From NCBI GenBank assembly GCA_964035545.1, contig OZ037765.1, forward strand, positions 28,384,004 through 28,448,003: a DNA stretch of 64,000 nt. Direction: 5' to 3'. The position numbers were made by a program, and so were the translations under genes. The notes beneath the pieces are model-generated. The model saw only the letters and a program-made list of their open reading frames with translations. It did no database searches and was not told the origin of the DNA. Source of the stretch: Bugula neritina. Taxonomy: Eukaryota > Bryozoa > Gymnolaemata > Cheilostomatida > Bugulidae. Below are positions 18,901 to 63,889 of the stretch, in pieces; position 1 is the first letter of the stretch; every line of letters begins with the position of its first letter.

Positions 18901-20149
18901 AAAGTTAATACTGTATATTTAGCTTTATTTCTAACCCCTACCTACAGGTTAAGTTATGTTTATTGCTTATTAATCCCATTGGAATAATAATTTCCTCTAG
19001 TCTTGGCTTTGTTGTTGCTGAATGTACAATAATGAGTTCACATTCTGAGCAAAAGGCATGCTGACCTATCTCAGCCGAGCTCAGGGAAATGAACTCAACT
19101 TGGTTCATGTTGTGCTGCTGTAAGAGGAAACTGAACTATTTGTTCATGTGATATCAACTGCTAACATTGATTGCTTTCAGGGTTTACAGACTGAGATGAG
19201 AAGCCACATGGAGCAGTATCAAAGAGAGCATTTAGCTATGCTAGCTGACTCAGTTGAGCAACTCATGTCAAAATACCCGAAACCATCCCCTGACGTTGCG
19301 GCAATGGGAGCACAATTACAAAACTTTTTCTCAGCTTCTACTAGTGCAGAGTGTGCACCTCGGGACCATGCAATGGCTGCTGCCGTTGATTTTGAAGAGG
19401 ATCTAAAAAAGCCTAAGTTAAAGCGGGCTGCCTCATTGGCCACTCAGCCAGAAAAGAGCTTTGTTGAATCTGAGTCTATGAGATATGGAAGTGGTGAATA
19501 TGCTGTGGAACAGTCTGGTGATGTGGTGTTGCAGCTTCGTAATCAAGTAGCTAGTCAGCAACAGCATATTATTGAACTTCAGTCTAAAGTTAATTATTTA
19601 GAGAGCACTGTTCAAGATGCCCGATCAGATTTACAGAATGTTAAATTGGATTTCAAGAGACGCTTGTGTCACGGAAGTTTTGTTTGGAGACTAAAGAATT
19701 ATAAGAAGTTGAGAGAAGAAGCAAGGCTCGGCGCCCCTAACTGTGTGCTTCATAGTCCAGGGTTTTACACTAGTTTTAATGGTTATCAGTTTTGTATAAG
19801 ACTCAATCTAAATGGAGTGGAGAATGCTCAAGGCACTCATTTATCATTATTTATTCACTTGATGCAGTCGGAGAATGATGACATCTTAGCTTGGCCTTTT
19901 ACCGGAAAAGTCACACTGACGATATGCGATCAGCACCAGGTGGCTAGCAAGCGCACTTCTATCTCGGAGACGCTGGTGGCAAAACCTGGTTTAGCAGCCT
20001 TTCAGCGACCAACCACTTTTAGAAACCACAAGGGTTTTGGGTACATGGAATTTGCGCCAATTTCGTATCTTGAAAGTGAAGACAGGTACTTCATCAAAGA
20101 CGATGTGCTGCTTATAAAAGCAGAGATTCGATCAACTTCTGTCTCTTAA
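15982..20149 (+). CDS. TRAF6: TRAF6-type adaptor / RING E3 ubiquitin ligase
   Basis: Six exons join in frame: 15982-16051, 16600-16729, 17160-17322, 17570-17797, 18781-18858 and 19181-20149 (stop TAA), giving 545 residues (human TRAF6 is 522). Domains: RING about residues 38-78 ([20 protein letters not shown]), preceded by GYDNEFIPP as in TRAF6. TRAF zinc fingers follow at about 80-222 with repeated Cys/His sets, including NFAKREI. Then a linker, a coiled coil near 320-370 and a C-terminal MATH/TRAF-C domain about 388-545, with [27 protein letters not shown] and [13 protein letters not shown]. By family it acts in the cytoplasm downstream of TLR/IL-1R or TNFR-type receptors and builds K63-linked ubiquitin chains. 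The start ATG gives a short N-terminal leader like TRAF6; the frame stays open upstream, so the 5' exon is slightly uncertain. No stops or frameshifts. Confidence 0.93.
17881..18103. repeat. 30-bp minisatellite in a TRAF6 intron
   Basis: Seven 30-bp copies in perfect register plus a partial eighth. The unit contains CTATAGCATCATGTCTTATA, then TATGTAGATG. It sits 83 bp after exon 4. It keeps ORFs open on both strands (17823-18107 and 17859-18110), which are repeat artefacts. Confidence 0.95.
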
Positions 20150-22931: not shown

Positions 22932-24835
22932 CTACTTACTTACTTCGATACTTCGACTTTAGCACACGCTAGATCACCATAAGGCGCAAGAGGCGTGCCT
23001 CAGCAGCTTGTTACAATACATTTGACATAGAATTATAACTGTATTTGCATACATTATGCATTTTAAATTTGGCAATTGTAGTACCTTTCAGGTTATCATT
23101 TATCAAGTATTTGGGGAGTTCCAATTCTTAGGTCTCTAATAGTGCGCGGTAGGAAGCTGTTATGATATGCTGTGCACATGGCAGATATCGCAGTTGGTAT
23201 TCCGTTAGAGGCAGCCCTCGTGGTAACGGTAGCGGTTGATTTGTCCCTTGTCAGTTCAGTGTAGCTGGAAGATAATGCCTGATGACATTCTTCTTTGGAC
23301 AGGATCTTCAAAAGGAGGGTTATTCGTAGGCTTTTGCGACGATCTTCCAGTGATGATATGTTGAGTTGTTCTCTTGCATCACTGATGCTAGCCTCCCGGC
23401 CTTTGAGACAGCAGATGAATCTAATAGCTCGGTTCTGGACTAACTCAATTTCTTTCACAAGTTGCTTTGTTACAGGATCCCAAGTGGTTGCAGCGTATTC
23501 TAGTATAGGTCTGCAGAGAGTCATATATGCCAGCAGCTTTGCTTTCTTGGGAGCTCCATAGAGGGATAGCTTTAGCATGCCAAGAACCTTGTATGCTTTG
23601 TTTATTTTCTTAGTTATGTGGCTGTGAAACTTGAGGTTAGATTGTAGTGTAACTCCAAGGTAGGTAATCTCATCTACGTAAGGCAATGTTTCTCCCCCTA
23701 GTCGATATGATGGTAGAATTTGGGGATCTTTGCCAAATGACATGATTCGGCATTTTGAGGAGTTGAACGGCATCTTCCACTTCAGAGACCAATTCTCAAT
23801 CTGTTCAATATTCTTTTGGAATTTTCGGACATCATCTAGGGAGTCCACCTCTTGAAAAATCAGTGTGTCATCAGCAAATAAACTGACACTGCAACTTAGT
23901 AGATCAGGGAGATCATTGATGTAAAGAAGGAATAGGGTGGGCCCCAGGACAGAGCCCTGTGGAACGCCAGAAAAGACTGGTAATCTACCAGAAGAGTGGC
24001 CATCTATGATTACTTGCTGCTCTCGCTTTGTCAAAAAATTCTGGAGCCATCGGAGTATGTGAGGATTAATTCCATCAACGACGCTTAACTTATGTATGAG
24101 TAGCTTGTGGGGGACTTTGTCGAAGGCCTTCTGGAAGTCGAGGACAAGAGCATGAGTGGTGTGAGAGTTGTTCATTGACCTGGCAATTTCATGGAGGGTT
24201 CCACAAAGCTGTGTTTCGCAGGACAAGCCACGACGGAAACCATGTTGACGATTATGGAGGATGGGATCTAACAGTTTATTGAGATAGTGTAGCACAATGT
24301 GTTCCAGTAACTTGCAAGGTATACTGGTTAATGATATTGGTCGATAGTTGTTTGGCATATCTAGCTGGCCTTTCTTGTGGACAGGGATGATGTTGGCTAG
24401 CTTCCATCCCGCAGGAAGTTTGGCACTGCGCAAGGATGCGTTAAAGATTAGTGTTAGGCAGTTGGCTATCAATCTAGTATCGATGCAGAGATGCTCTTTG
24501 TTAAGTCCGTCCGGACCAGGTGCCTTACCAGTTTTGAGATCGTTCAGAAGCTTTTCCACCCCATCGGGAGTCACATTCAGATCATCATCATCAGAGTGAT
24601 AAGGGAGGTCGTCGGTGAAGAAATCTTGCTGGCAGAACTGTTGCTGAAAAAAATTATTGAGTATCTCAGCATTTTCTCGAGGATCAGTTGTGGAAGTACC
24701 ATTAGGGTGAGTAAGTGTCAGCATGGGTTTTGTTTTGTTCTGAATATTCTTCAGATATTTAAAGAAGGGTTTGCTGTTTCCAGCTTCCAATGGTCCGCAT
24801 ACCACTTCAGTGTATAGTTGTAGACCTACTACTAC
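22932..24835 (-). mobile_element. 5'-truncated non-LTR retrotransposon (LINE)
   Basis: It consists of the RT-bearing ORF (23096-about 24800), a 3' UTR of about 150 bp (22947-23095) and an AAGT tetranucleotide tail (22932-22946, minus strand). The endonuclease half expected upstream is absent, so the copy is 5' truncated, as target-primed reverse transcription often leaves. Both flanks are TAG/TAC-rich simple sequence (near 22920 and 24825), so an exact target-site duplication cannot be fixed by eye. Confidence 0.85.
23096..24800 (-). CDS. LINE reverse transcriptase (C-terminal part of ORF2-type protein)
   Basis: The frame is open without a stop for 586 codons, from 24856 to the stop at 23096; only about residue 20 onward reads as LINE protein. 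Reverse-transcriptase blocks appear in order: IPVHKKGQLDMPNNYRPISL (finger/palm start), HGFRRGLSCETQL, LDFQKAFDKVPH (first catalytic Asp), GVPQGSVLGPTLFLLYINDL, FADDT at about residue 328 (catalytic Asp pair) and a C-terminal region with LEYAATTWDP. The arrangement resembles the Jockey/CR1-type clades; I do not assign the clade. No endonuclease domain remains and no translation start is evident, so the copy cannot move on its own. The intact frame suggests recent insertion. Confidence 0.93.
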
Positions 24836-26053
24836 TAGTACTATTACTACGATCATTTTAATTTTGCTTCAAAGTGAAAGTAACAGTTGAGGTTGACTCG
24901 ACATAAAAGTGTATCACTATAATACTGACTATCACTATAGTAATACTCAAATAGTCAGTATGAGTATAACTATAAGTATAAGTAAAACCTGAGGCTAATA
25001 TCAATCAATATCAAATTGAATATGAAATTGAATATGATCAATGATGACTATTTATTAATAATATTAATATTACTATTAGTATTAGTTTAATATTGAACTT
25101 TTTACAATATTTATATTGTAACATAAAATTTAACAGGCTCAAAGGGGTGCTTATGTATTAATTATATTACTATTAGTATTATCATCATTATGCTTATGCT
25201 TAGCCTTATTGCGATAAAAATCACAATGAACTTAAATAATGAATTACTGCTGTATTAAATTTAGCACTAATAACAATAACATTATTGTACAGTTACTAAT
25301 AGTAATTGTGATTCAATGATAATTGTATTTAGATGATCACTGAGCTACCGTGATCTTAGGGTTAGACTGGTGAGTCATAGGTTCTAACCCCAGTAAAGGC
25401 CATTAATGATGTTAGGAAGAGTAACCAGTCATAATTGCTGCTGTGCCCCATCTGAATAAGTCTTTAGCCCATTTTCATCAGGGATTTTTCACAGAGATAG
25501 TGACTATAAACTTGCGCGAGAGTTTATTTACTAATAAACCATACAAGTATACCAGGTCCTAACTTCCATGGTAACACCAAGTCTAACGTTTGGTGTTTAT
25601 AACAAGATATATAACAGTTGAATTGTTTTATAATTTTAAGCAATTTCCTGCCATTATTTGATTACATTTTTGCTTTAGTTTTGTTCAGCTCAAGAAAATC
25701 ACCATAATTGTTACTATTAATATTATTATTATTATTATTGTTAATACAATAGTATAAGTAATCCAGTATTACTAGTACCGTTTGTTTGCCAAGTGCATTA
25801 TTCATGGATTGCAGTTGGATCTCTGTTAAAAGTGCATATTAATAAAATAATTTTGTATTTATAGAATATAAATCTAAAAGCAGTAAATAAGTCACTTTAT
25901 AATATGTTTCAAATAATGAAAATCTACAAAACCTTTTCACTGAATCAATATTAAGTTAATTTAGCAAGTTAGTTGGTTGTTAGTTGGTATTTTCTGACCA
26001 AACTATCTTTAATGTTTTTGAGAAATTATACATCATCATCACTTTGCTTGTAG
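24836..26053. other. Region upstream of the first recognised THOC1 exon
   Basis: It contains TAATAC-type repeats (about 24830-25100), one SINE (listed separately) and unassigned AT-rich sequence. The THOC1 start codon and first coding exon should lie here or be very short; I could not place them. Confidence 0.5.
25335..25527 (+). mobile_element. tRNA-derived SINE, copy 1
   Basis: A box-B-like GGTTCTAACCCC lies at 25380-25391, preceded by a tRNA-like GACTGGTGAGTCATAG. The body (AAAGGCCATTAATGATGTTA, then CAGTCATAATTGCTGCTGTG) and the 3' part (CATCAGGGATTTTTCACAGA, then GTGACTATAAACTTGC) match copy 2 at 26863-27028 along their length, in opposite orientation. Head region partly decayed; no clear target-site duplication seen. 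Confidence 0.75.
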
Positions 26054-37600: not shown

Positions 37601-40600
37601 AGCCATGTTTATTAATGAAGATTCATTTGGCCCGCTAAAAGTAACTTTGGTTTTTTAAAACTGTTTTGTGTTCAAAGCAGTTCTAGCCCTGAGATATTCT
37701 TTAACCATCGCCCTAAATTTAGTTATCTTTCTTTAAAACTGCCAGCTACAGATTGTAAACAGAGCGAGAGAGAGCTTGCTGTTGACTCTGTGGATTTGGG
37801 ATTAGAATTTTATCAGCTGTATTTTAAATATCTAGTATGGTTTGATAATTTTCACATTCACAGCTGCCTACTACAGCAGCAAAATATTATTATCTGTGCT
37901 TTTTTCTATATTACACAGTAGAAATTACAGGTTTCACAGTTTAGAATAATACAGATGTAAAACACACTGTCAATGTCTTTCACAATCAAATGCTTCAGAG
38001 TCTAAAACTTCACATGAACCTTAAATTTGAATTACTATTTTGCATATCCAGCAAAAATGAATTAATCTATGAGAGTATGGGTTACAAAAGAGAAGACAAC
38101 TTCTAAGAGAGACTGAATAATAGAAATAAAGAAAGAAACTTCAATTACCTCGAGCTGCTTGCTTTCATTGCGTTTGGCTATGGCTATGTTGTAAGATGGT
38201 GGAACAGTGGGTCTATGCTGACTTACGTTACCATTGCTGCCATTAGCTGACCTCCTGGAGATGCCACGCGAGTAACCCGGCCGGGATGATAAGTGGTGCA
38301 TCCGCTGACCTAAACACACATATATAAAGTAAGTAAAATCGCAAACAGAATATATATATATGGTCAAAATTATAACTATAGCAGCAAAAAACATGATGAG
38401 CCAAAATACCTGTTTTAGAGTTATCTTCTCACGCTACAGCTAACTGGTGACTGAAAACCATGAAATTTACAAAAAAATACCAGTGTTACTTTTTATGCAC
38501 TCTTTAAAAATTAAAATGCAGTGAAGAAATTACAATTTTCAAATAAATGAACAATTAAAAATAATAACTTGGTGTAAGTTTTGTAAACCGTATTCTAAGT
38601 TAGTTTTGCAAGTCCTCTAACCTGCATAGGAGAATCCATCCACGTCACTGGCGTAACCATCCCCTACACTTCGCTGGCTGTACCTCTCCCACTCATGGCC
38701 ATCTCGGCCCTGCTGGAGCGGATATCTGGGTCTGGACCTGGTGTCACTGGCCGCTCTAGAAGCCCCTTTAAACTGGGAGTTGTAATAACCCAAATCAGAC
38801 TGCACTTCGGGGTTCTTCCTGTGTTTTTGCATTCGCTGATAATACTTGAAACTAAAAGAAACATATAAAAGTATTATATTCATAATCTTCCACAAATAAA
38901 TGAAAAGTTACACATTTTAAAAAATATTCACGGAAATATAAAATATTGTTAATGAGAAAACTAACCGACGCTGATACATTTTGGGATCTTCATTTGACAC
39001 AAACACACCGAAAGTTTCTTCCTGGCTATTAGCCATTTGACCGTTAGAAGTTGAAAGCTTGTCAGCCTGTGATCTGGAGATGTCAGCAGGTGCCCTAGAA
39101 GTGTCAGCAGGTGTCCTAGCAGTGTCAGCAGGTGCCCTAGAACTATCAGGTGTATCTTGTAACTGCAGCTGACTAGTGAGATAGCGGTCGTACGGCTGTC
39201 CTCTGAGTGATTGCTGACTGCTGTACGGCAGCCGAGATGTGTCATGATGTGACTGATTGTCTCTGGCAGCTGACCTGCTGCTCGGCGTTCTCTTTACTTC
39301 AGTATTGGCAGCAGATCTAGATTCAGTAGGCAGGTGGGAGGAAGCATGATAGTGGCCATTTTGTATTGTCTTAGGCTGACTATAGGTTGATGAGAGACTG
39401 GAACCGTTAATCTTGCCTGAGGGTGAGCTAACAGTTGTAGACTCTGCATCCAGACCTCTTTCTGACAGTTTAGAATGTCTTCTGTCTTTCACTGTATAGT
39501 AATTACTTGTTGCATTAAAATATATGCATAAAAAGCCTCAATTACATCATCTCAACATGATAATGTCTAAATTGTATGTTCAAATGATAAAACAACATAA
39601 AGGTCACTCACATTTATTGGGCTGCCTCGTTAAATCCTGAGATGAATTTTGTTTGTGATGGGCAAGCAGAGACAGCTGTACATCTTCTGAATTAACTTCC
39701 TGGGAATGTCGGTTTATCCTCGCTTTATCTTTAGCAACTTTTTCCTAACAAAAAACATGGTTTCTTTGAAAGTCTTGAAATTTATTTTTTCAACACTTTT
39801 TTTATATTATCAGAGAAACTGCTTCTACACAACATAGAATACCATTCCAGCTAGTTGGCATAAGCTGTGCTTTTTAGGCAAATTATTTTCAATGTCAGAT
39901 AACGCGAAACCAAAAACTGCAAAAATATAATTGACACCAACTAAGCACCATGGCAACTACGGTATTTAGAATTCAAATGAGCAAAGGCCAACCTTTTCCA
40001 GTTTAACTAATCTGTGAGTAGAAGTCTTTGGTGAATCAGGTGCAGAACCAAGGAGTATGTTGCTAGCTGTTTGCTCCTACAATATTAGGTACCGCATGGT
40101 GTTGAAATGAGATAATTAGCAAGATGTGAACAGCCAGTATACAGAAAGTATAATTAGCAGACTAGAAAGAAATGCATACATTTGGACTATTGTCATTTTC
40201 AGCATCACCACCTTCCGTCGTTTTTCTAATCGCTTCATTCTTCATGTGCCGAGTTCGAACTCTCATCTCCTTAGGATACGATGAATTGACCTGCTAAAAC
40301 ATGCAAAATTGAACTATAAACACTTGCCACACCAACAAGTTAAGACAGGCCTGTGCGTTAAAGATTTCATGCTCAGAATTAAACTCATACGATCAAATAG
40401 CAATAGTCACTGCAATAAGCATACGTTGCAACTAGTAGACCCTGCATCTTCAAATTGTATCTGTAACCGCTGCTGCCGCTGCTCCTCCCAGAGAGACGGG
40501 TGGAAGCTCTGGCTGTCATCCCCATACGAATCTATTGGATCCATTCGCTGCTGAGGCAGCAGATAGCAGGTAAGGCATCGTCTGTTTGTTTCTGGGTCAG

Positions 40601-43600
40601 TAGCCGCTTGCAGACGAATTAAAGCTTTTGACTGAAAATATCCAAAAATAAATGGGCTGCATAAATCACCATTTGACAAGTTGATACATCACTGTCTCTG
40701 TGTTGAGTGAAATATTGTTCTTCCAAGACTGAAAACCAAAGAGCATACAGCAGGAAATAGAATTCTGTAAGATGAACTCTTTGCATTTAGCTGAAGTAAA
40801 CAGCAACAGAGTTTACAGACTATGGCTTTGCCATCTTCTGCAATCTTTCTAGATATCACACAATATTTGTACAAATGACTTTTCAACAAATGAAGAAACT
40901 TAAGTAGATTGGAAAGATATAAGAATTCACCTGCAAATGTGCTTTACTATTGCGGAATTCCAGTGAATTACACATTAAAGGAGGGCAACCGAGTGCACAG
41001 CTCTTAGAAATTACACTATTATGCTGTGTTATTTAATTGAGTCATTGAGATGTTGAATGCAAAAACATAAGTGGGTGATTATTTGAAAAACTAGTCCATA
41101 AGTAGGTTTACATTGTACACAGTAGAGAGTAAATTCATGTTTAGTAAAACAAGAGTAGTTGTTGAAAATTGTCTAAAATACTATAGCAAGGTTGTATTAT
41201 AAAGGCTGTATTGATAGAAAGGTGGGAGTACTAAGCTGGGTATGTAAACATTCTAACAAGGAGGAATTGTTGGTCTCTATGAATAGGAGGTATTGTTAGC
41301 CAACCACTTGAGATTCTGCAAACTTCATCCAACTATAGGATGTTCAAATAAACCCAGCATGTGACTAGCTTCTCAATTACAAAAAAAATTAAATTAACAT
41401 TATGACTAAATTTTGAACCTCATGAAAGAGGAATTTAATTAAAAAGTTCACTCAAAAAAGGCGAGTTAATGCAGATCATACAAAATGCCCTGCGACAGTT
41501 GATAATCATGTCTAAATCATGTATAAATGAGCTCTCCAGTGAACGGCTCCTCATACTTGACGTGTATGCTGATAAAATGAAGGAGCGTTTCGAAGAAATG
41601 TGCCAGAGATGCGTGAAGAGCAAGAATTGCCTCATTAGTATGCATGTCTATTACGCATACGGAGCAATAAATCACGCACCACTTTCTCTCTCAAACACAG
41701 CGGTTTGGCTAAGAGAATTGCTAAGTCTTGGTTTCATACACAACGTTTCAATGGCAGTCAGTGCATTCTTGTGGATTTCATTCAGTTACATGTTGTGGAA
41801 GTAGAGGCTGATTAGTACAATGACCTTTATAATTAATATATATTATCAGACTAATTAATAGCCATTTTATTAAAATTAATAACTGACCTGGTTTTCAGCA
41901 AGCCACAGAGCTTGTAGCTCCTTAAGATTCATCAGACTGTAGGGCAGAACTTTTACTTCATTGTCACTTAAGTTCAACACCCTTAGCCTAGGGATTCGGC
42001 CAATCTCATCAGGTAGGTAGGTTAGCCTGTTGCTTCGAACTAAAACATTAATTCCACCATTAACTTAGCCTATTATAGCATGTTGCATGAAAACGGATAT
42101 TTAGCGCAAAACTAACCACACTTTTTTTTAGTAAGTACTGACAGTGCTATTACGAAATAGAAAGTTTCCCAATTTTTTATCAAGTTTTCAATTTACTTTT
42201 GATGGTTGCATTTTTTATGATAATAAAATTTGATTTATGACTAATCATAAAGTTATTTTCATAATAATATTTTCCCTTTTTCATCCCTGCCCTGGACATT
42301 CCAAATTTCATGAATAATAACCATTTGCTACACTTTGGCTACACTACACTAACTATACACTACACTAACTACACACTACACTAACTATACACTACACTAA
42401 CTACACACTACACTAACTATACACTACACTAACTAAACACTACACTAACTATACACTACACTAACTACACACTACACTAACTATACACTACACTAACTAC
42501 ACACTACACTAACTACACACTACACTAACTATACACTACACTAACTATACATTACACTAACTACACACTATACTAACTATACACTACACTAACTACACAC
42601 TACACTAACTATACACTACACTAACTATACATTACACTAACTATACACTAAACTAACTATACACTACACTAACTATACACTACACTAACTATACATTACA
42701 CTAACTATACACTAAACTAACTATACACTACACTAACTACACACTACACTAACTACACTAACTATACACTACACTAACTATACACTACACTAACTACACA
42801 CTACACTAACTACACACTACACTAACTACACACTACACTAACTATACACTAAACTAACTATACACTACACTAACTATACACTACACTAACTATACACTAC
42901 ACTAACTATATACTACACTAACTATACACTACACTAACTATACACTACACTAACTACACACTACACTAACTATACACTACACTAACTATACACTACACTA
43001 ACTACACACTACACTAACTACACACTACACTAACTACACACTACACTAACTATACACTACACTAACTAAACACTACACTAACTATACACTACACTAACTA
43101 CACACTACACCAACTATACACTACACTAACTATACACTACACTAACTATACACTACACTAACTATACACTACACTAACTATACACACAGCATACCTGACA
43201 GGACGGTGAGCCCAGAGCAGCTCCCCAGTTCACACGGAATATCAGCGAGAAAATTCTCATCTGCTATCAGAGTTCTAAGGTGACGCAACAAGCCAATTGT
43301 GGGGGGTATCTCCTCCAGGTCGTTGGCACTCACATCAAACTCAGATAAGGAAACCAGGCTACAGAATGCAAATATCAGTAAGCAACTTAATTAATGTGGA
43401 TTTGTGTAAAAACTAACACTAACAACGAAAAGCTGCCTCCAAATACAATTTGAAGAGTTCTTATCTTCTATTTTGATGTTGAATAATCATAATAATGAAA
43501 TGTCATGAGCTGTGAGTGGATAACATCCTGAACTTTTGGAGGTAGAAGGAACAGCTGCTTGTAGGGTTAGTAGAGTAAACAATATACACCTTGTAATACT

Positions 43601-46600
43601 TTAGTCATCCACATTAGAAATAACATACAATAATTATAAACTGGTGTATACAGACATACTTTAGTAAAAAAAATAAATGTGTCAAAGAAGCATCAAACTG
43701 AAAAAATGAATTTATGTAAACGTTTGTTTATATAAAAAATAATAATAAGGTAAAGCAACTCCCGCTATGTCTTACATACATGTACAATACTATACAATAT
43801 GTTGGACAGAAATAGCATCACAACACCAATACAGGATGCCTGCAATCCCCACCTTATCTCATCTCTCCACCCCAACCCCCTCTCTCCACCCCTACATTGC
43901 TTCCTCTCTCCACCCCTACCTAGCCCCTCTCTCCACTCACCCGCCAATAGATGAGGGCAGCGACACCAGCTGATTGTCATCTACTTTCAGAGTCGTGATA
44001 TTGCTGAGTCTACCGATACTGTGAGGAAGCGTCTTGAGAAGGTTAGTAGAAAGGTGAAGGTCACTGAGAGAGATGCATCCATCTATCTCATCAGGCAAGT
44101 CAGTGATTCTGTTCTTACACGCATCAAAGTACATCAGCTGTTTCAGATTGCCAATTTCCTGTAAGCAGAAGATGTGGCAGAGTTAAGTGTTGGCAATCAC
44201 ATTTATGGAAACTAACAGACTCTTTGAAAGCCCTCCGTGGTAATTACATCAAGTAGACAGTTCCTACAAGTTTTGAAAATGAATGAATACTTTTCATATA
44301 ATTGCAATTTTTTCTCCATTATTCAAAGCAAAATTTTTTCCGCAGTTTAGCCCCATTCTGAAATTCCATACCACTGCTGAATGCTAGTCTCGACTATATA
44401 AATAATGTAACCGGGCTTTCATAATTGAAGCTGTCAACTTGGAATGAAACAAATTATTGATTGAGGAGAGCAAAGCTAACAATGAACTGCTATTCTGCTA
44501 TCTTCCTTACAAACAATCTCCATACTACTATTCCACTGTTTTCAAATTGACATAATACTGACCAACTACAAACTGAATTCTGCTGAAAATATGAATGCCA
44601 AATGCTAAAACATTTATTGCATAACATGTAACCATGAGAAGAGTTTCTGTTGGGTTGACTAAGTAATAGTTACAGAGATAAAAGTGGTCACAGCCTACCT
44701 TTGGAATACTAGTGATCTGGTTGGAGTCACACCAGAGTTCTAGAAGGTTCTTCAGTGTAGCCACAACAGATCCAGACTGCAAAAATATAAAATTCACTCT
44801 AAATTTCATCAAAATATGAGTTTAACCATTTATAGAAATGGATATCATAAGTTAGTTATTTTGCTTTATTGTTATCAAGACTGAAGAGTTGTGATAACAC
44901 TGAACATTGCAGTTACCAACATACACCTTGTGTAACATTATTATGTATTACACAAACGGAATGTTTCACTTTTCCAAAATGAAGAAAGTATGTAAACTAT
45001 GACCAAAGAATCTGCATGAACCAACTGTAAGCGGTTTATCCCCCATCCAACCCACAAAAATGCATTTATCATGAAACGTCTACTAAGCCAAGCATGAAAC
45101 TTCACCAATCTCTCTATTGCTCAATAGTTCAACTTCGGTTTTTTGTAAAGATTTCTTATTAACTAGGATATATCTAAATACTTGTATAATATTGTGACAC
45201 TGCACATCCACCTACTGTCAACATGCATAATCAAAATGAAGCAATAGCAAGCTCTTCTTACTTCAGGGATGAAATAAGTGGGATTTATAAACTACTTTGT
45301 GTCAAATAATGAATGGAACGGCCACTACAACAGACCCTCTGCTTTATCCACTCAAATATAACTAGTCTATCCGTGTACACAAAGGTGTATGCTATGTGTA
45401 TGTATGCTATGTGTATGTATGCTATGTGTGTGTATGCTATGTGTGTGTATGATATGTGTATGTATGCTATGTGTATGTATGCTATGTGTATGTATGCTAT
45501 GTGTGTATGCTATGTGTATGTATGCTATGTGTATGTATGCTATGTGTATGTATGCTATGTGTATGCTATGTGTGTGTATGCTATGTGTGTGTATGCTATG
45601 TGTGTGTATGCTATGTGTATGTTATGTGTATGCTATGTGTGTGTATGCTATGTGTGTGTATGCTATGTGTGTGTATGCTATGTGTGTGTATGCTATGTGT
45701 ATGTTATGTGTATGCTATGTGTGTGTATGCTATGTGTGTGTATGCTATGTGTGTGTATGCCATGTGTGTGTATGTTATGTGTATGCTATGTGTATGCTAT
45801 GTGTATGTTATGTGTGTGTATGCTATGTGTGTGTATGCTATGTGTGTGTATGCTATGTGTATGTATGCTATGTGTATGTATGCTATGTGTATGTATGCTA
45901 TGTGTATGCTATGTGTATGTATGCTATGTGTGTGTATGCTATGTGTATGTATGCTATGTGTATGTATGCTATGTGTATGTATGCTATGTGTATGTATGCT
46001 ATGTGTGTATGCTATGCAAATACTACACTAAAACACTTTGTGTAATCATTCAGTGAATTCTATTGAGTAAAGCAGAGACAAAGCAAAACATTGTATCAGG
46101 TGAATGAGGTGTAAATTATGAGTTAACCGATTAGTAGGATTAGTAAGTGAGTGGTGCTGTAACAGGGTGGGAGTTACTCTTCAAGGGTGCGCCACCAGCT
46201 ATAGCACACACTTGCTTACTTCTAATAGTTAACATAGTGTAACTGAACCCCAGAATGTATCATATTATTACAAGAATATACTATGGAAGATGCAAGTAAT
46301 AAATTAGGTAATGACAGGCTGAGACTGACCAGTTCTGTGAACTCATTGCAGCCAATATCCAGTCTCTCCAGCTCTGTTAGTCTGGCCAATGACTGTGGTA
46401 AAGTCTTTAAGTGGTTTTCTCTTAATTCTAGAGTCTTTAGCTGTGATAATCTACGGAAATACAATTGTTTTACTGCTGCGAAACATAAAGCCATGATTGA
46501 TGGCACCATTATATAACAATATTTATCAGTTGGCAATGGCAGTGAAATATTTTACAGAAATAGGTCTCCGCCCTGATCATGAGTCAGATAATTGATTTTA

Positions 46601-54126: not shown

Positions 54127-57100
54127 CTATTGTGTATTCAACTTCTGGCGTTTGGCCGATGGACCTTCTGCATCTGGATTAGCCTGTGGAGGTAGGACGA
54201 CTATATTCTTGGATCCAGGTGTATCCCCATCACTGGTAACCACTGTCATTGGGGAGGCCTTCATCTTAGTCATTGAGCTCTTCACTCCATAGTGGTGATC
54301 CAAGTTCTGTGACTGACTACTCTGTTCAAGCAGCTGCATTGAAAATACACAATCTTCAGTACAAAAGGTTAATGTATCATCATTAGCCAACTTCAGAATT
54401 AATATTACATAATATAAACCTAACCTCAATTTTAAAATAGGAAAACCTTGCAGAGCTCAAAAGATTACACAGCAAGAAAACATAATCTAAAACTCAAGAA
54501 TGCCCCAGGTGTTGAGTATACAAGAGATATAATACTGACCTCTCCCATGACAGCAATAGAGGTTTGACCTGTGGCTCCAGCCACTTTCTGTTCAACCAGA
54601 TAGAAGATGTACTCATCATACAAGAGGCGAATCAAATGAAAGGATCCAAAGGAGGCAGCACTTCGCAAAGTCAAATCTCTAATTATCATGGAGCTAAAAG
54701 CAAGAACAGTAGAAAATTATACTATTTGACATCCATAAAAATACTACATGTTATTCACAAACTGTGGGTTTTTCAAAAAATACAGTGCATTCACAATAAT
54801 TCATTATCTTTGTCAATTGCATCATCAGTTATTACTATTTTGTTTAGTAAAAACAAATAAACAATATCAAAATAAAAGCCTAGCAGTGACTAATAAACTA
54901 GAAACATGGAATGCTCAAAATAAGAAACAGAAGGAAAAAAACATTTATGGTACTGCTTTTTAGTAACTTCCCATTAAAGTGAGATCAGTAAAGTTATTAT
55001 TATTTGCATGCTTCCCTGGAAACATAAAAACCCGTGACCGGTGAAGTGTACACGGGCAACCAGACAAAGGGTGGACGTGAAGACAGACCAGCTGGGACAC
55101 AAACTTACCTGTAGAACGACCATTTTAGGAGAAACTGCCGTGCAGCTTTGGTGAAATTCTCGGTCTGTTGGTAAGGCTTGAGCACCTCATCAACAACAGA
55201 CTGAAGCCATGTACTCCACTCCTCTAGAGTGTGTTGGTCCTGGAGGAACCTCTTGAAGTCCTTCTCCAGCTGGGTGACTAGACTGTCTTCACACTGACAG
55301 ACCCACGATGCTTGTTCCTGTCAGAATATACGCACCCAGGTTGACGGAAAGCACAAACATTGTAAAGCACTTGGCTTGAAAAATCAGAATTTCTGGGGTA
55401 CTATATGCTATGTTAAACATACCAGCTAATTAAACTAAAGGTAAGCAATTTAATGGAATTTAGTAAAATTAGAACCGGTTGGGTAGCATACTTATTTTAG
55501 TATTATATTATTTGTATAAGCGTTGTATTATTTATATAAGTATTTATCATATAATTGAAATAGTTTTAAACATTTGGTAGAGTAAGCTGCTTTGAAATGC
55601 AAGCTTATAAGATTAAAAAGCTATAGAATACATGTGATGAGACAACTTTACACCAACCTAACTTTATATACAACTTAGCATGTTGTTGCTATGTACATAA
55701 GAATTCGTCATTTGCAATGCTATAAGGAGTGATATTAAAAAAAACCGTTGCCGTAGAAACAAGAAAGTTAGATAGAATCACAATATCTGACTAATAAAGA
55801 GAGTAGTGAGCTGCTACCTTGACAACCTTGTACGAACTACAAAAGCACCATATCCTGATTTACACAGCTGCTTACACTACACACTTTAAGCAAGTAATAG
55901 AATTACACAGAATGTATATTTTATACAACAATAATTATATTAGACAGCTATAAAAATTTACATCCCATAAAATACTCAACTAGGATACTAAGAGTATGAC
56001 CTCAAAAAGGTTTTTAAAAGTAATGAAATACACTTTTGATAGGTCAGTTTGCAGTATGACGGTATTGAGTTGAAACAAAAATAGTAGCTAGACAGTATCC
56101 CAAACAACAGAAAGAAAACTTTATCAAAATTCAGAGCAAGTATTGAAGAGAACTCCCTGTTCTATATGCATTCGACTAGCTCTACATCTAGTAGTTCATA
56201 TTTTCTGATTGGCAAATTAGGTAGCGCCTACGATTGGCTTACTGATTCTAAACGCTGTAGTAACTCACTCATGAACTCCAACTCCCACATTGAACCATGC
56301 CAACATGTCGAGTCAGCCAAAATTTCGAAGAGAAATAGCGGACACTAGATAAATGTGAAAATTTCTTCGCTAGTAAAGCGGAAACAGGAAACACCAAAAA
56401 CTTTGGCAAGACAAACTTCTTTCAACGACTATGAGTAAAATATACGTAGATATTAATCATAGATGAATAAAATCTGTTGAAAACCAAAAATGTGAAAAAA
56501 ATTCTACTTCGCAATGTTAGAAGTTTTAAACATTGTTGGACAACTTCTAGAGAGAGAGAGACAGCAGCAAATGGAATACGAGATAATATTACCACGCTGA
56601 ACTACTCGTCACCATGGATGTGTTTTGTGCGGTAAATATAAATATGACATAGTTGAAGATGGCACCAATTGTAGCTTTTTTTACTTACCAGCACATTTTA
56701 ATGAAAAACATGAGCAACTGAATTCATAGCCATAAACATTTTATAGGAGATGGTGCTTTACACTGCTAAACTTTAAAAAACATTTCAATTTTAAAATAAT
56801 TTTTCTATTTTAGTATTTATATAATTTATGATCTTGCCCAGCTCCTGATTTAAAATTTTTTTTTACTCGATTATGCATTGAAATTGATAAGATTATAATA
56901 ATATTCATTATTGATTGGGATGTTTAGTAATAGTTACAACACATAATTCAATCGTAAAGTTGGTTGAGTATGATAATGATGGCCAGTATTATCTTACTGT
57001 TTGTTTATTTTAATAATTGATAATAAACTATTTCCTTCCAGTTTTATTAGCTCCGACAGCCCATCAGTGATGTAACTGAAAGGAGAGCTAAGACAGTTGT

Positions 57101-60100
57101 TGTAGTGACTTCTATGTTGTAAATGTTAATTTGATCAATTCTACTTCATATAAATTTAAATATAACTATTGACAATAGTTTTATTAAAACGTTCATTGTA
57201 CTTTTGAAAACATTAATGCGAAGTTATATTATTTCAATCATTTTATGTTAACAGTTGAGAATTTCTGCTAAGTTTTTCAGTTTCTTGTTATATTAATGAA
57301 CATAGTATGTAATTTGTTTCTCAGAAATAATGCCTGTTGGAGTAAATTTACTATCCTCTTAGCAAATAGAATGACTCTGTTGACAAGCTAGTTGTTAGTC
57401 ATTGTGATAAGAAATTCTTTAAAATCATATTCCTATCTTGAGCTAAAAGAGTACTAATCATATCTATTTTAAAGTTTGTACCTTCAACTGAAATAAATGT
57501 ATTAATATGCAATACATACTGCAATAACAAACCAATAACTGCTAAAAAACAAGTAACAATCAACTTTGTTTTAGGACATCATCAATATTAGGAGATATGG
57601 AGATATACCCATCAATACCTGAACATTGGCGAAATCTACTCGGTTCAGATCTGACAGCATCTGAGTTATTTGGGACGAGTTCTGTAGAACCGATCTGGCA
57701 GCCTGAGCCAGGTGATTGAGTGATGTGTATCGACGCAACGTCTGTGAAAATGCGCTAACGGCACCAATCTGTAAAAATACATGAGGATTTATATAACTAT
57801 AATCTATATTCATAGAAAATGTAAGTAATTAATATTAGAATAATAAATATGCAAGGCTCAATAATATTGATTAAATCAAATAAAAATTCAATTTTTTTAA
57901 AATGTGATTTATTGTTAGACCTCTATAACAAATGTTTACTGTCTTATAATGCCTTTATACTATGACAATCATAAATACAGCAAACATGTCATATACATGA
58001 ATGGATATAAGTTTTATAACTACTGTAATTGGTTAGTCGCACTAGGTGGTCACATAACTGTATAATAGTTACATTAAAAACTATGTTAGCACATTTTTCT
58101 ATACTTGAGACACTGGTCAAACATGATAACTTAACTTATCCCACCCCAAGTCCAATTTGCCGAATATGTTCCATTCACTGTTTTGTTTCCAAGACTCATA
58201 GCTTGTTGTAATTATTTCAAACTTGTCTAACATGTACATTACATTCTGTAACACAAGTCAATTACTGATATCAGACTCACCTTGACACTGATCATAGCCT
58301 CAGGTATTCCCCCAATTGATGACCTTAGGGAGGTTTCCAAGCCTTTCGCAAAGTTTCGAATAGTTTGGGTGAGTGTACCTAATAGAGGATACACCAAAAT
58401 AACAACTTATACACTGAATAATATCCATTTACTTGAGACATACTGTGATGCTGTGTGTGAATGGTGAAACTGCTTGTATGCTGTAACCAAGTCAAATACT
58501 TACTAGGTATAGGCCTAAGGACATCTGGCACCAACAACTCAAGTAGCGCTTGGTAGAAACTGTAGTCTGCTTCCTTTACAAACTCCTGTACTTCTGACAG
58601 AGCAGCCAACTTCAACAATTTCTCTTTCGGCAGTTTTGCCTCCACCTCAGGGTCAACACTACAAGTTATTGACACTAGAGTATATCTGTAGGCGATGGTT
58701 GAACAGGTCAAAAATACTCTCAAGTTGCATGTCACACTCATACTTATATGCAATGTATAAGCTAGAGTAAAGTAGATGCTTCAACTAACCTTACATTCGT
58801 CTTCCTCCAAAATGTTTGCCACAAATTCTCAATGAGATTTAAATGTAAATTTTGAACTAAATCTAACACCGCCTGAAATAAACAACACAGAATGTGTTTG
58901 TACATTTACAGTCATTAGCATATGCATCATGTACCAATCAAATATAAAGATAGTGAAACATGAACCTACTTCACAATGCTCTTTGTACATGGTATCAAAT
59001 GTGTTGGCATCACCCATAGTGACACCCTGGGGCAGGTTCTTGCTATCTATAGTTAGATCATTCTGTGGTATGGCCTCCTCGGGGGATCCTAAATACTGTT
59101 TATGTTGCTCAGTGTCCTGACTTGTAGCAGCTGCCTCAGTCTTCATGGCGTTTCCAGCATCTCCCCCATCGGCACCACTGGACTTGGCTATACGTCGGTG
59201 TGGCTGAGTGGCTTGCCTCATCGCTACAGGAGTATCATCAGGCACCATCTGGTTGAGAGGACTGTCGGCCTTGATGCGTATGCCATAGTAGTGGTACTTC
59301 GAGTTGCCCCTAGAACCAGCCAGTAATAACACTGAGTACAATGTGAAAACACGTGACGGCGTACAGGTAGAGGCTACTTCAACGTGAAGGTTTTCCTCAA
59401 TAGTGATGAGTCATCCATGGCGTGTGTTGTCTTAATTTAAACAGAAATTAGTTTCCAGTCTCTACAATTATAACATGCATTTGTGCATCTTAGTAAGAAA
59501 GTTTAATTGAGATCAGCAGCTTACATATACTTTACAACAAAGAAAAACAATTTAAAAAGACATTTCCAAAATGCTAGCACAAGAGCAGCACCCATCCCCT
59601 GTAAGACTGTGTACTTGACAAGTGAAGAGCGTGTTAGAGCGTGAAAGTCCTTCAGCAGCGGCCACGGTTACCTGGTGCCTAAACGCCGGGTCCTGAGGCC
59701 TAAAAATACCGACCGGATAAGTTTGCCAAAACTAGCAGGATTCATTGGGTCGAGCCTAGCCTGGCGACAATGCTGCATATAATGGGCATAGAGAGTAGAG
59801 CGAGGCAGACTAACTCCTTCAGCTACATCATAGTTATCTAGTAGCCATTGAACCTGCAAGTATGTAAGAAACACGGGTGTAGCATCTTTAATCAATGCAG
59901 ATTATCATTACCTTTGCCCCAATCTTCTAGTTTTCAAATCTCTGAATATTGTTCGGACTAGCTTTCCAAAAGATGCAGGATTGGATGCTTCTATTTTCTC
60001 ATTATTGCAATGATGCATATAAAAGTTGTAGAGTGTACATCGAGGCAAGCTTGTACCATCGCAACTTTCAAAGTTAGCTAGCAGCCATTGTACCTAATAT

Positions 60101-63100
60101 ACAGCACAGAGAATAAGAATAATATTGCATGCAACACAATGTTCAGTATATAATCGAATAATATATTAGTAGACTGAGGTTTTTTACTATTCTCATTACT
60201 AGGTTAGGGGATTAGTACGAGCATATATTATTAGAACAGGGCACCCCATCTCATCTCAATCAGACTTGAGCAGTGGTATAACAAAATAGTTAAGTTTACC
60301 GTTCGATTATCGAAACTCACAGTAGCAGGGGCTGCTCTTGTGGTCTGAGCTAGTGGGTATCCTTCGCCGTCCATAGTAGCACCGTGGATGAGGTAGGCAT
60401 GACCTCCCATTTGTTGCACCATTTGTCCAGGGAAACTCTGTATGCCCAACTGTGATAGCAAGGACAACCATACATTTTCAGTTAAATTACATAACAAGAA
60501 GTGGGGTTTCAATATTTTCCAGACTCAGAAATAAATGGGACCAAGTAAACAAGTAGATTATAATCACAAATAACCAGTTAGACCCTAAAATTATCTTCTA
60601 AGTTTGAGACTCTAATAAACAAGTGATATACAAATAATTACATAGAAATGATATTATCTGGACCCGAAAGGCCACGTAGCTCACATGGAACCATACATGG
60701 AACCACCAGTTTCACTAATTATGGTTATGACGGTTTCTAAATCTTTTATTACAGGTCTAGCAGATTTAAAATACGTAAACATTTTCATTTTGATCACGAC
60801 GCTAAGATTTTTAGTCTCAACTCCCAGAAGGTCAAGGTCACTTTGAGAATGATCAAACCGAATATATTTTTAAAAACACTAAGTTGACACTAAAATCTAT
60901 TATTTTACTCAACGGGTAAAAATTGATTATTAAATGAATTTAAAAATAAAAACATTCATGCTGATACTTATTTTATAATATTTATTTATTCAATTAATAA
61001 AACTTTAAATTATAATTTCGTAGTATCAATACATTACCATGAAAAAAAAGATCTTTATGTTAATACACATGCTTTATAGAATTTGCTAAACTTTATAACT
61101 TTTACTGAATTAATAGAAATCAATTTGATATAAAATACAATGCTACCTCTGTATCTCATGGTTCTATTTCCCACGAAATTCCACAGGTCACGAGGAGGGC
61201 TTGGACCACCGTTTTGTGGCTTATGTATGTGTGTGTGAGATATGGAGAAAGCATTGTCATTGTATTTTTAAAGAGTAATAGTACTACGCTTCGTGCAAAA
61301 ATCTCAATTTTGAATTAACTAATGTACAATGAATAAATAAAAATGGCCGAATTTAACAGATCCGTGAGTTAAATAGGTTGTTTTATATGCAGTCGGCTGG
61401 CTCGACATATATTTCTGATTGGCTAATTAAGTTGCGCCTATGATTGGCTTACTAGTTTTAAATGCACAAATTGTTGCTGATGGCTGTGACTGTCATGGCG
61501 CACACGTGCACTCTAACTCACAGTAAATCACACTAACATTTACAATTTCAGTTTCATAGCTTAAGCTCGGCAACTTTTTTATGTAAGAAGTCACTAAACT
61601 TAAATCACATTGTTGATAAATTGATACAGAAGTAATTTTTATTTTTAAAGATTTTTTTAGTAGTGAAACTAAATGCAGTTGTTTTCGTGCCAGTAGTAAC
61701 ATTATAAAGTAAGCCAATATGAGATGCTAACTCATGAGCCAATCAGAAAATGTCAAGCAGCTAATTGTCGAGCCAGCTGACTGCCTATTATAGAAATTTC
61801 CAAGTTAAATCTGGTATTCTACTATGAGCTTAGTGAGATATGGAGGGAGCATTGTAATTGTATTTTTTAGTGAGGAATAGTACTACACTTTAAATTAACT
61901 AATGTAAAATGAATAAAAAAAAATTACTGAATTTTTTATGGTGATGGTGGACAACTAAAATGACCGTTTTTATAACCGATGGAATTTATAAGCACAACAC
62001 TGATACATTTAGTCTTTCTACTTAGGCTTTAATCATTAATTTATATTATATTAATTTAAAACTAGTTTTTTTAATTGCTTCTGAAATGAAATAAAATTCA
62101 AAACAATACATACAAACAAACATACATACAGAGCTAAAAATTTCCGCGTGTGTGTGCTTGTGTGTGTGTGTGTGTGAAAAACAGTTAAACTCTGCAACTT
62201 GCTGCATGCTAAAATTTTGGGAAACTAAAATGTTTTAGAGCTAAATAAAATACACAAGGCATGCACACATATAATAATAAGTCAGTAGGATATTTTATTA
62301 GACTAAATAAGCCTCACCTGTTGGCCAGTTGAGTATCCATGATAGTTGTTTGTGGGTGAATATGTACTTTGAGAATACTCTTGAAATTGGCTGCAATGAC
62401 ATAAATTGTACAACTTGATTCGGAGTTAGAAAACAGGGCACAGCAGGTTCTAAAGATAGCATTCGATATCATATATTACTTTATATAGGAGAATATTGCA
62501 TTAAAAAAAGGTGAATACAACTCACAATGCTGCACACTTTCCAGTTACATAATGTATAATATAGTTTTACAGTATAAAACACATTATGATGGGTAGAATC
62601 AGTATATCAAAGGCTTCTAACTATATAAGTAAGCACCAAGTGATAGAATACCTTTACACTAATGTGTAGTTCTAGCATTAACTTACATGTTACTTTGCTA
62701 TTTATTAACATACATGTTATTTTGTCATGTTACTTATATGTAATTTTGTCATATAACTTACATTTTACTGTGTCATATATTAAGTTACATGCTATTGTGT
62801 CATATATTAACATACATGTTATATTGTTATAATATATTAACTTACATGGTATTATGTCATATAACTTACATGTTATTTTGTCCGTTGGGATATACTATTT
62901 GTTCCTGACCAGTTGTCACGCGGTTGACAGAATCTACATATTGCACAGGATAAACCGTCTGTCCAGCATTTCCATGATCTCCACCTGCATTTCCTGCACT
63001 GGCAGCTGGGTTGGTGACTGCTAGAAAATGCATAGAATTTGCACTAGTTGGAGAATGGTGGTGATGGTGGTGATGGTAATATCCATGGTTCATGCTAACA

Positions 63101-63889
63101 CCTTCGGAAATATGCATTTAAGCAGAAAAATATAACTCTTGATATGTTTCCTTTAAAAAACAAGCAAATCAGATAGGAATTTTCTTCTAATGCTTTTTTG
63201 GTAGCTATGAAGTCCAAATATCTTAGCTTGAGCAGATATACTAAGTATAAGCTGTCACTGTACGTTCAAATGTTGCTCGCCAACAATATAATTCAAGATG
63301 TTTCACCCTCTATAGCTAAAGGATGAATGATTCAACTTTTGTCACGGCTCAACACACATAGACAACTAATGCTATTACCACTAAAAGCGCGCTTTGACTT
63401 CTGCATTACCACCCTGGTTACTATAGGGTCACGCTAACCAATAAATGGGCTTCCTGGCTAAAAATAACAGTATTTATTTGGAATCTCTTGATTGATTTGC
63501 AATTTCTTCTGCTTTCGAATTCCAAAGATCCAACAAGATATTATAGATGTTATAAAAGAATTACTCACCAAATGCAAAAAAATAATTTACACATCTCAGA
63601 AAACTTCCCATTCCAGTACTTCTAAATTTTAATTCCGACTTACACAATGTACACACACTTCATAAAAATGTCACAAAATGATTAGCAAAGACTAACATAT
63701 TTAGTTGATATCAACAGTTGGCAGCATAGGAGTTATACCTGTCACGATATATTGCTGTCCGCTGCCATCACTAGTGGGTTGAATAATTGTGGCCCCTTTA
63801 CTTTGAGTGACTACAAACTGCTGCCCGGTTGACATGTCTCCAGACACAACAATGGTCTTCCTGGTGGGTGCGGAAGTGCTTGCTGCCAT
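54127..63889 (-). CDS. RFX1/2/3-type winged-helix transcription factor
   Basis: Transcript-order exons: 63739-63889, 62870-63101, 62318-62390, 60321-60449, then one DNA-binding exon (59672-59853, or alternative 59912-60093), 58970-59309, 58790-58872, 58504-58658, 58281-58378, 57619-57768, 55109-55317, 54540-54693, 54127-54333. About 720 residues. An in-frame TGA precedes the ATG. N-terminal activation-type region is Gln/Thr-rich with His60-66. The RFX DNA-binding domain is about residues 196-270, entered through QTTRAAPAT as in vertebrate RFX1-3 and closed by [14 protein letters not shown]. The B/C and dimerisation regions follow: [79 protein letters not shown]. The C-terminus has a basic SAKRQKLN. 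By family it binds X-box motifs and drives ciliary and other genes in the nucleus. Complete; all phases agree. Confidence 0.97.
56163..56320. mobile_element. Short foldback (MITE-like) element in an RFX intron
   Basis: The left part (TTTCTGATTGGCAAATTAGG, then GCGCCTACGATTGGCTTACT) aligns with 61384-61466. Near the right end CATGTCGAGTCAGCC is the inverse of the left-arm motif. It looks like a small, diverged copy of the element at 61384-61800. Confidence 0.5.
59672..59853 (-). other. RFX DNA-binding exon, canonical version
   Basis: 182 nt, entering at phase 0 and leaving after two bases of an Arg codon completed by the exon starting at 59309. It encodes [20 protein letters not shown] and ends in [10 protein letters not shown], very close to vertebrate RFX1/2/3. 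Acceptor CTTGCAG; donor CCAG/GTAACC. Confidence 0.95.
59912..60093 (-). other. RFX DNA-binding exon, divergent tandem copy
   Basis: 182 nt, same entry and exit phase as the canonical exon, placed immediately upstream of it in the transcript with only 58 nt between. Uninterrupted frame: [20 protein letters not shown], then [18 protein letters not shown] and RRLGQR. It shares 34 of 60 full codons' residues with the canonical exon. The core that forms the winged helix ([13 protein letters not shown]) is kept, while the first helix, the middle segment and the end differ. Acceptor ATATTAG; donor AAAG/GTAATG. Probably a mutually exclusive exon. Confidence 0.9.
61233..61940. repeat. Direct repeats flanking the foldback element
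   Basis: 61233-61370 and 61832-61940 are two diverged copies in the same orientation. Both read GTGAGATATGGAG, then GAGCATTGT/AAGCATTGTC, GTATTTTT, AATAGTACTAC, AATTAACTAATGTA and AATGAATAAA. The foldback element lies between them. Confidence 0.7.
61384..61800. mobile_element. Foldback (MITE-like) element in an RFX intron
   Basis: The left arm starts TATATGCAGTCGGCTGGCTC, then GACATAT and TTTCTGATTGGCT. The right arm (61735-61797) reads as the inverse of this: GCCAATCAGAAA, GTCGAGCCAGCTGACTGCC, TATTATA. So it has imperfect terminal inverted repeats of about 60 bp around an AT-rich core and no transposase. Consistent with a non-autonomous DNA element. Confidence 0.6.
62682..62880 (-). repeat. 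Tandem repeat containing 5' splice-site sequences at the RFX exon 2 donor
   Basis: About eight diverged units of about 23-30 bp run into the exon boundary at 62870. On the transcribed strand the unit reads AACATGTAAGTTA-TATGACA. Four units keep GTAAGT exactly (plus-strand ACTTAC at 62691, 62756, 62840 and 62864); others read GTATGT or GTAACT. The last GTAAGT is the real donor. Confidence 0.8.

Follow-up and report, generated by a model that had tools for sequence, protein, structure and literature searches.

Mutually exclusive exons in transcription-factor domains are already known. The DNA-binding domain of FOXP1 contains two mutually exclusive exons, 18 and 18b, and the DNA motif that is preferred differs between the resulting isoforms (Gabut et al. 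2011, as cited in an excerpt of PMC11701043). For mammalian RFX proteins, an excerpt of PMC2533330 describes a wing that contacts the major groove and a helix 3 that contacts the minor groove, with nine contact residues. As regards the splicing of exclusive exons, the limit on the distance from donor to branch point is roughly 50 nt in human (excerpts of PMC6692369 and PMC7969005), and the human exclusive clusters reported in an excerpt of PMC5740500 include 57 (9%) with such a short distance and 377 (60%) with exon lengths not divisible by three. Among the open-licence papers listed, titles and beginnings of abstracts described neither an RFX gene whose DNA-binding domain is encoded by alternative exons nor such a layout in Bryozoa.

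The locus described here lies in a window, i.e., the whole 64,000-nt stretch of DNA that was analysed (G000:C1:28384004-28448003), from a genome of 215.8 Mb in 295 contigs. An RFX1/2/3-type gene runs on the minus strand of the window from 63889 to 54127, with 12 shared coding exons and one alternative slot that can be filled by either of two exons, here termed A and B (Table 1). With either exon choice, the corrected gene model codes for 700 aa and has a single stop, at its end. At the end of the exon upstream of the slot, two in-phase donors are available 21 nt apart, at 60321 and 60300; the border was originally placed at the former, but the exon probably ends at 60300, with 21 nt more and in the same phase, since the models of both annotated orthologs (P0001 and P0159, see below) use the distal donor, thus reading VSFDNRT before the alternative exon.

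Table 1. Features of the RFX gene and their positions in the window
Feature	Position	Strand	Remarks
First coding exon	63739..63889	-	Starts MAASTSAP
Coding exon 2	62870..63020	-	Start placed by homology to P0001
Coding exon 3	62318..62390	-	
Shared upstream exon	60300..60449	-	Homology puts the donor at 60300; a second in-phase donor lies at 60321
Alternative exon A, 182 nt	59912..60093	-	RFX DNA-binding domain of the derived, bryozoan type, helices 1-3 as far as the wing base; annotated in W. subatra ortholog P0001
Spacer between A and B, 58 nt	59854..59911	-	yTnAy branch-point-like A's 46 and 19 nt past the donor of A
Alternative exon B, 182 nt	59672..59853	-	Canonical RFX1-3 DNA-binding domain; 61/61 residues identical in B. 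neritina P0159
Shared downstream exon	58970..59309	-	Wing tip and strand 3
Shared exon next after the wing exon	58790..58872	-	
Shared exon within the part matching the RFX dimerisation region	58504..58658	-	Start placed by homology to P0159
Shared exon	58281..58378	-	
Shared exon	57619..57768	-	
Shared exon	55109..55317	-	
Shared exon	54540..54693	-	
Last coding exon, with stop codon	54127..54333	-	

The predicted gene belongs to the RFX1/2/3 subgroup by domain score, C-terminal region and orthology. When joined to the shared next exon, A and B score 108.1 and 116.6 bits, respectively, against the Pfam RFX_DNA_binding profile, for which the cut-off is 27 bits. The C-terminal dimerisation region matches, exon by exon, the C-terminus of human RFX3 (the query sequence being an approximate one). 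The best protein matches, among those listed, are RFX1-3 proteins with PF02257 and PF25340, and in the tree the gene is placed among lophotrochozoan RFX1-3. A search with the B-form domain at E up to 0.001 recovers, as solved relatives, 1dp7 (the RFX1 domain) and 8zjr (which contains RFX5).

Other features were also observed in the window. An open frame of 590 codons at 23096-24868 (-) includes a reverse transcriptase domain and is apparently a non-LTR retrotransposon, and an exon of a MATH-domain protein of TRAF type lies at 19124-20149 (+). A tandem repeat at 45313-46056 (+), open in several frames and encoding 12-residue units, comes just after a region of strongly negative GC skew (40001-44000). 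The window contains 8 X-box-like sites, against a chance mean of 5.5.

Exons A and B have the same phase (0 in, 2 out), are bounded by AG and GT at both ends and each encode the RFX DNA-binding domain from helix 1 through helix 3 and into the beginning of the wing. They are identical at 34 of 60 residues (35/61 over the 61-residue exon) and at 108 of 182 bases. The original prediction had described two adjacent 182-nt exons, 58 nt apart, with equal phase, intact splice sites and this same residue identity, and remeasuring of the frames and borders bore it out. Its further claim that using both exons, or neither, would shift the frame also proved correct, the first stops falling at codons 241 and 199, respectively, with over 1,100 nt still to go to the last exon junction. 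Stops that far upstream of the last junction should trigger nonsense-mediated decay. In a chance control, where B was left to drift neutrally to roughly the DNA divergence of A, the frame was open in 230 of 2,000 simulations and the observed 34 of 60 identical residues were reached in none of the 2,000, the maximum being 27. No special RNA structure was predicted around the exons, 17 of 20 shuffles folding as well or better. Mutually exclusive DNA-binding-domain exons would be the best reading of this arrangement.

The spacer between A and B is shorter than all of the other 78 introns measured, with a minimum among these of 78 nt. Its predicted position as the shortest intron stood; the next-shortest value of 80 nt given with that prediction comes near this minimum, although that exact value was not reproduced. 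The sample comprised 12 introns of this gene (smallest, 97 nt), 13 of the paralog described below (smallest, 93 nt, placed by eye), 47 kinesin introns on contigs C1-C9, whose lengths were estimated from the distance separating one match from the next (smallest, about 84 nt), and 6 inside kinesin matches; 2 of 49 kinesin gaps were dropped as belonging to an intronless copy, and small contigs were excluded as an apparent contaminant. Because a short intron could hide inside a single match, 12 long or stop-bearing kinesin matches were read individually, and 6 of them contained an intron (78, 96, 108, about 105-111 nt and two longer). Introns shorter than 78 nt may occur elsewhere, given that the kinesin matches read amount to 12. 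The branch-point A's predicted by motif within the spacer are 46 and 19 nt away from that donor of exon A which precedes them, below the limit of roughly 50 nt quoted above for human. The 58-nt length favours a steric exclusion of splicing between the two exons, though neither it nor the branch-point placement proves this.

As a separate observation made on the kinesin matches, several small contigs (e.g., C42, C52, C149, C154, C189, C213 and C283) carry kinesin genes with in-frame TAA and TAG, mostly without TGA and often recovered as one-piece matches, and look like those of a ciliate (TAA/TAG = glutamine) contaminant or epibiont. An intronless kinesin motor at G000:C1:15946867-15947844, with in-frame stops and frame changes, resembles a processed pseudogene.

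The top protein matches of the window gene are bryozoan, namely P0001 and P0003 of Watersipora subatra and P0002 and P0159 of Bugula neritina (best 120 matches per search). Isoform B and the B. neritina ortholog P0159 are identical at 375 of 377 residues, which makes the source animal B. neritina or a species close to it; Bugulidae and Watersipora both belong to the cheilostome bryozoans. In P0159 the string ATVSFDNRT is followed by exon B, with all of its 61 residues as in the window. In the W. subatra ortholog P0001, the same string is followed by exon A in the same slot (56/61 residues identical), and both proteins run on into the same shared exon after the alternative one. P0001 and P0159 are database gene models, possibly predictions, P0001 being a one-member cluster without isoform number. 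No A and B isoforms from one species were found among the best 120 matches per search; the two exons occur together in the window genome, and the annotated proteins give A in W. subatra and B in B. neritina. Exon B may have been lost in Watersipora, since only A is annotated there. A fragment of the window RFX gene (P0168), from jgi and lgn sources, was also retrieved, and no relatives were found in genome_contigs and viral_contigs.

A second RFX1-3-type gene, L011, is present on contig C2. It has one DNA-binding exon, again of 182 nt and of A type, whose residues are as in A at 47 of 61 positions and as in B at 36 of 61; its relatives P0002 (B. neritina) and P0003 (W. subatra) are also A-type. 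A second DNA-binding exon hidden in L011 was not found, tblastn at E up to 10 giving one full-length match. A Pfam RFX search of the whole genome returned seven places. Besides A, B and the paralog, these are exons that belong to three further RFX loci, and no additional RFX1-3 domain was found among them. Absence or decay of the divergent exon in relatives had been named in the original prediction as a refutation, but that exon is annotated in the Watersipora ortholog and is the sole type in the paralog. An assembly artefact or a random ORF is ruled out, since two genes of this genome, as well as three proteins from two relatives, carry the same exon type.

To place the two exon types, a tree was built on the 61-residue DNA-binding exon with 22 rows (Owenia was dropped, the text pattern giving no exon). 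All five A types group together (100/100), the stem of their clade being long (1.04 changes per column), and inside this clade the orthologs pair with each other (91/79), as do the paralogs (95/87). Exon B falls among the canonical RFX1-3 of other phyla, adjoining Lingula (96/95). A recent exon duplication within the species was rejected, a clade of window A and B (with the B. neritina copy) having a p-AU of 5e-105. A grouping that unites every bryozoan A and B exon is absent from the exon tree but is not clearly rejected (p-AU 0.09). The tree built on the shared region that follows the exon (20 rows; the window row comes from an early gene model, which has 9 extra residues where two exons meet) places the duplication of the gene before the separation of Bugula and Watersipora.

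On these trees, type A would be older than the gene duplication or would have arisen about then, and the simplest history is likely an exon duplication followed by the gene duplication and by loss of B from the paralog; an exon transfer between the genes soon after the duplication is possible. The reverse order, in which the gene duplicated first, the exon of the paralog diverged to type A and one of its copies later came to lie beside B through insertion or conversion, would agree with A being closer to the paralog exon (47/61) than to its own neighbour B (35/61). Such a capture is nonetheless unlikely: window A pairs with the A of the Watersipora ortholog and not with the paralog of its own genome, so that any exon transfer predates the Bugula-Watersipora split, and the insert would have had to land in phase with both splice sites; flanking sequence of that age would by now be past recognition.

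Synonymous differences between A and the paralog exon amount to 28.3 over 38.3 sites, against 21.7 over 141.7 for the nonsynonymous ones (Fisher on rounded counts, p = 2e-11), with a pN/pS of about 0.2 and a dN/dS of about 0.05, dS being near saturation. The selection check suggested for the divergent exon thus points to strong purifying selection. For the A-B pair no dN/dS is given, because their synonymous divergence is saturated (pS 0.785). Since A is annotated in a relative, belongs to a single A clade, recurs in the paralog and evolves under purifying selection, it is an old and conserved second DNA-binding domain and not a decaying copy. It is quite unlikely that one exon is vestigial or tissue-trivial, with a single exon in use and the other being a relic, regulatory noise or a feed for decay. 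The annotation of one exon only in each relative, and the premature stops caused by double or null inclusion, would be in line with such a relic, but both frames and all splice dinucleotides have stayed intact despite the synonymous saturation between A and B, exon B is fully conserved in B. neritina, and exon A is more conserved in Watersipora (56/61) than the rest of that protein, for which the values are 352/436 after the wing and 121/173 in the N-terminal part.

The residues that distinguish A were sought in a comparison set of 277 fetched proteins, of which 254 gave the DNA-binding exon by text pattern and 23 were unused; the 254 comprise 4 bryozoan and 250 other sequences, the latter corresponding to 127 distinct non-bryozoan domains. 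Across animals, the RFX1-3 DNA-binding domain shows little variation: 19 of the 61 exon columns are invariant in these 127 sequences, and A keeps all 19, including R18, R56, R57 and R61, as well as K44 and R47 (each present in 126/127 of the other domains). Seven residues (C11, S37, V46, I49, R51, D52 and Q60, exon numbering) are common to all five A types and each occurs in fewer than 3% of the 127 others, and A alters columns that are near-invariant elsewhere (I46, S48, V49, G52 and T60). One 13-residue string is present only in P0001, P0002 and P0003 among the 277 fetched proteins.

The top PDB match of the AlphaFold model of the A-type protein P0001 is 1dp7, the RFX1 DNA-binding domain on an X-box (TM 0.84 by target length, 68% identity), and the helix and strand borders of the domain are the same as in the model of P0159, used as a B-type control. 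On the P0001 model, the A-specific positions are found beside strand 1, immediately ahead of helix 3 and within its second half, in the following turn and at the wing base. Model confidence is low for the wing in P0159 as well as in P0001, and is therefore not peculiar to A. From the residues and the fold retained, the contact geometry and the likeness to FOXP1, we infer that type A would bind DNA and may prefer different sites. The idea that isoform A is instead impaired in DNA binding, already put forward in the original prediction, and dimerises with isoform B to damp it, draws on the dimerisation region common to both isoforms and on the near-invariant columns changed in A, but it is weakened to the point of being very doubtful by the full retention of the 19 invariant columns and of the basic residues K44 and R47, by a charge near that of B (9 basic and 5 acidic residues in A, 9 and 4 in B), by the predicted RFX fold and by Watersipora, where both RFX1-3 proteins among the matches listed are A-type and, if they are its only ones, no working RFX1-3 would be left.

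Our preferred reading, to which we assign a probability of about 0.8, is that a transcript of this RFX gene must carry either A or B, never both or neither, as its DNA-binding-domain exon, these two being homologous, with B ancestral and A derived, that the tandem preceded the gene duplication and that the paralog became fixed on A. B would yield the ancestral, canonical RFX domain, and A a derived bryozoan domain with predicted fold and basic residues unchanged and with helix 3, the turn between helix 3 and strand 2 and the wing base altered. Joint inclusion would be hindered sterically by the 58-nt spacer, and nonsense-mediated decay would clear the double or null products. Since the wing tip and the dimerisation region are common to both, A- and B-isoforms would dimerise together, and the A form would bind a shifted or overlapping set of X-box-like sites. 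Both exons would have stood in tandem before the gene duplicated in the ancestor of Bugula and Watersipora, with the paralog then retaining the A type only, a case of isoform fixation by gene duplication.

More tentatively, and with doubt prevailing, tandem duplication of the exon might have given cheilostomes a new DNA-binding specificity for RFX1-3 besides the canonical one, with one gene switching between the two by exclusive splicing and the paralog being hard-wired to the new one; the canonical domain might even be lost in Watersipora, with all RFX1-3 activity there resting on the new type. A second version of the domain that was built, diverged and conserved beside the ancestral one would offer a natural test of change in a near-invariant recognition domain. 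The system also bears on whether exon duplication precedes gene duplication and, the control of ciliary genes being the usual role of RFX1-3, on whether this control was rewired in bryozoans.

In overall architecture, DNA-binding domain and C-terminal dimerisation region, the gene resembles the animal RFX1/2/3 proteins (DAF-19, dRFX and human RFX1-3). With FOXP1, as described in the source excerpted above, it shares mutually exclusive exons within a DNA-binding domain of the winged-helix class; however, FOXP1 is a vertebrate forkhead gene, whereas the RFX swap concerns a complete 182-nt exon covering helices 1-3, is accompanied by a single-type paralog and entails a change of specificity that is putative. 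The tandem duplication of a transcription-factor domain exon also recalls the HLH exon of vertebrate COE/EBF, but according to an excerpt of PMC2394523 the COE copy is obligatorily included, while the RFX reading frame forbids both. The exclusive exons of alpha-tropomyosin and OGDH likewise have a short distance from donor to branch point, with a threshold of about 50 nt (excerpts of PMC6692369 and PMC7969005), whereas the RFX branch points, at 46 and 19 nt, are motif matches only. The teleost mitf duplicates (Altschmied et al. 2002) belong to another family, and differ from the present case in that the bryozoan gene keeps both exons and its paralog the derived one only. What is distinctive here, compared with the mutually exclusive exons already known in transcription-factor domains, is indeed this paralog with one exon type only.
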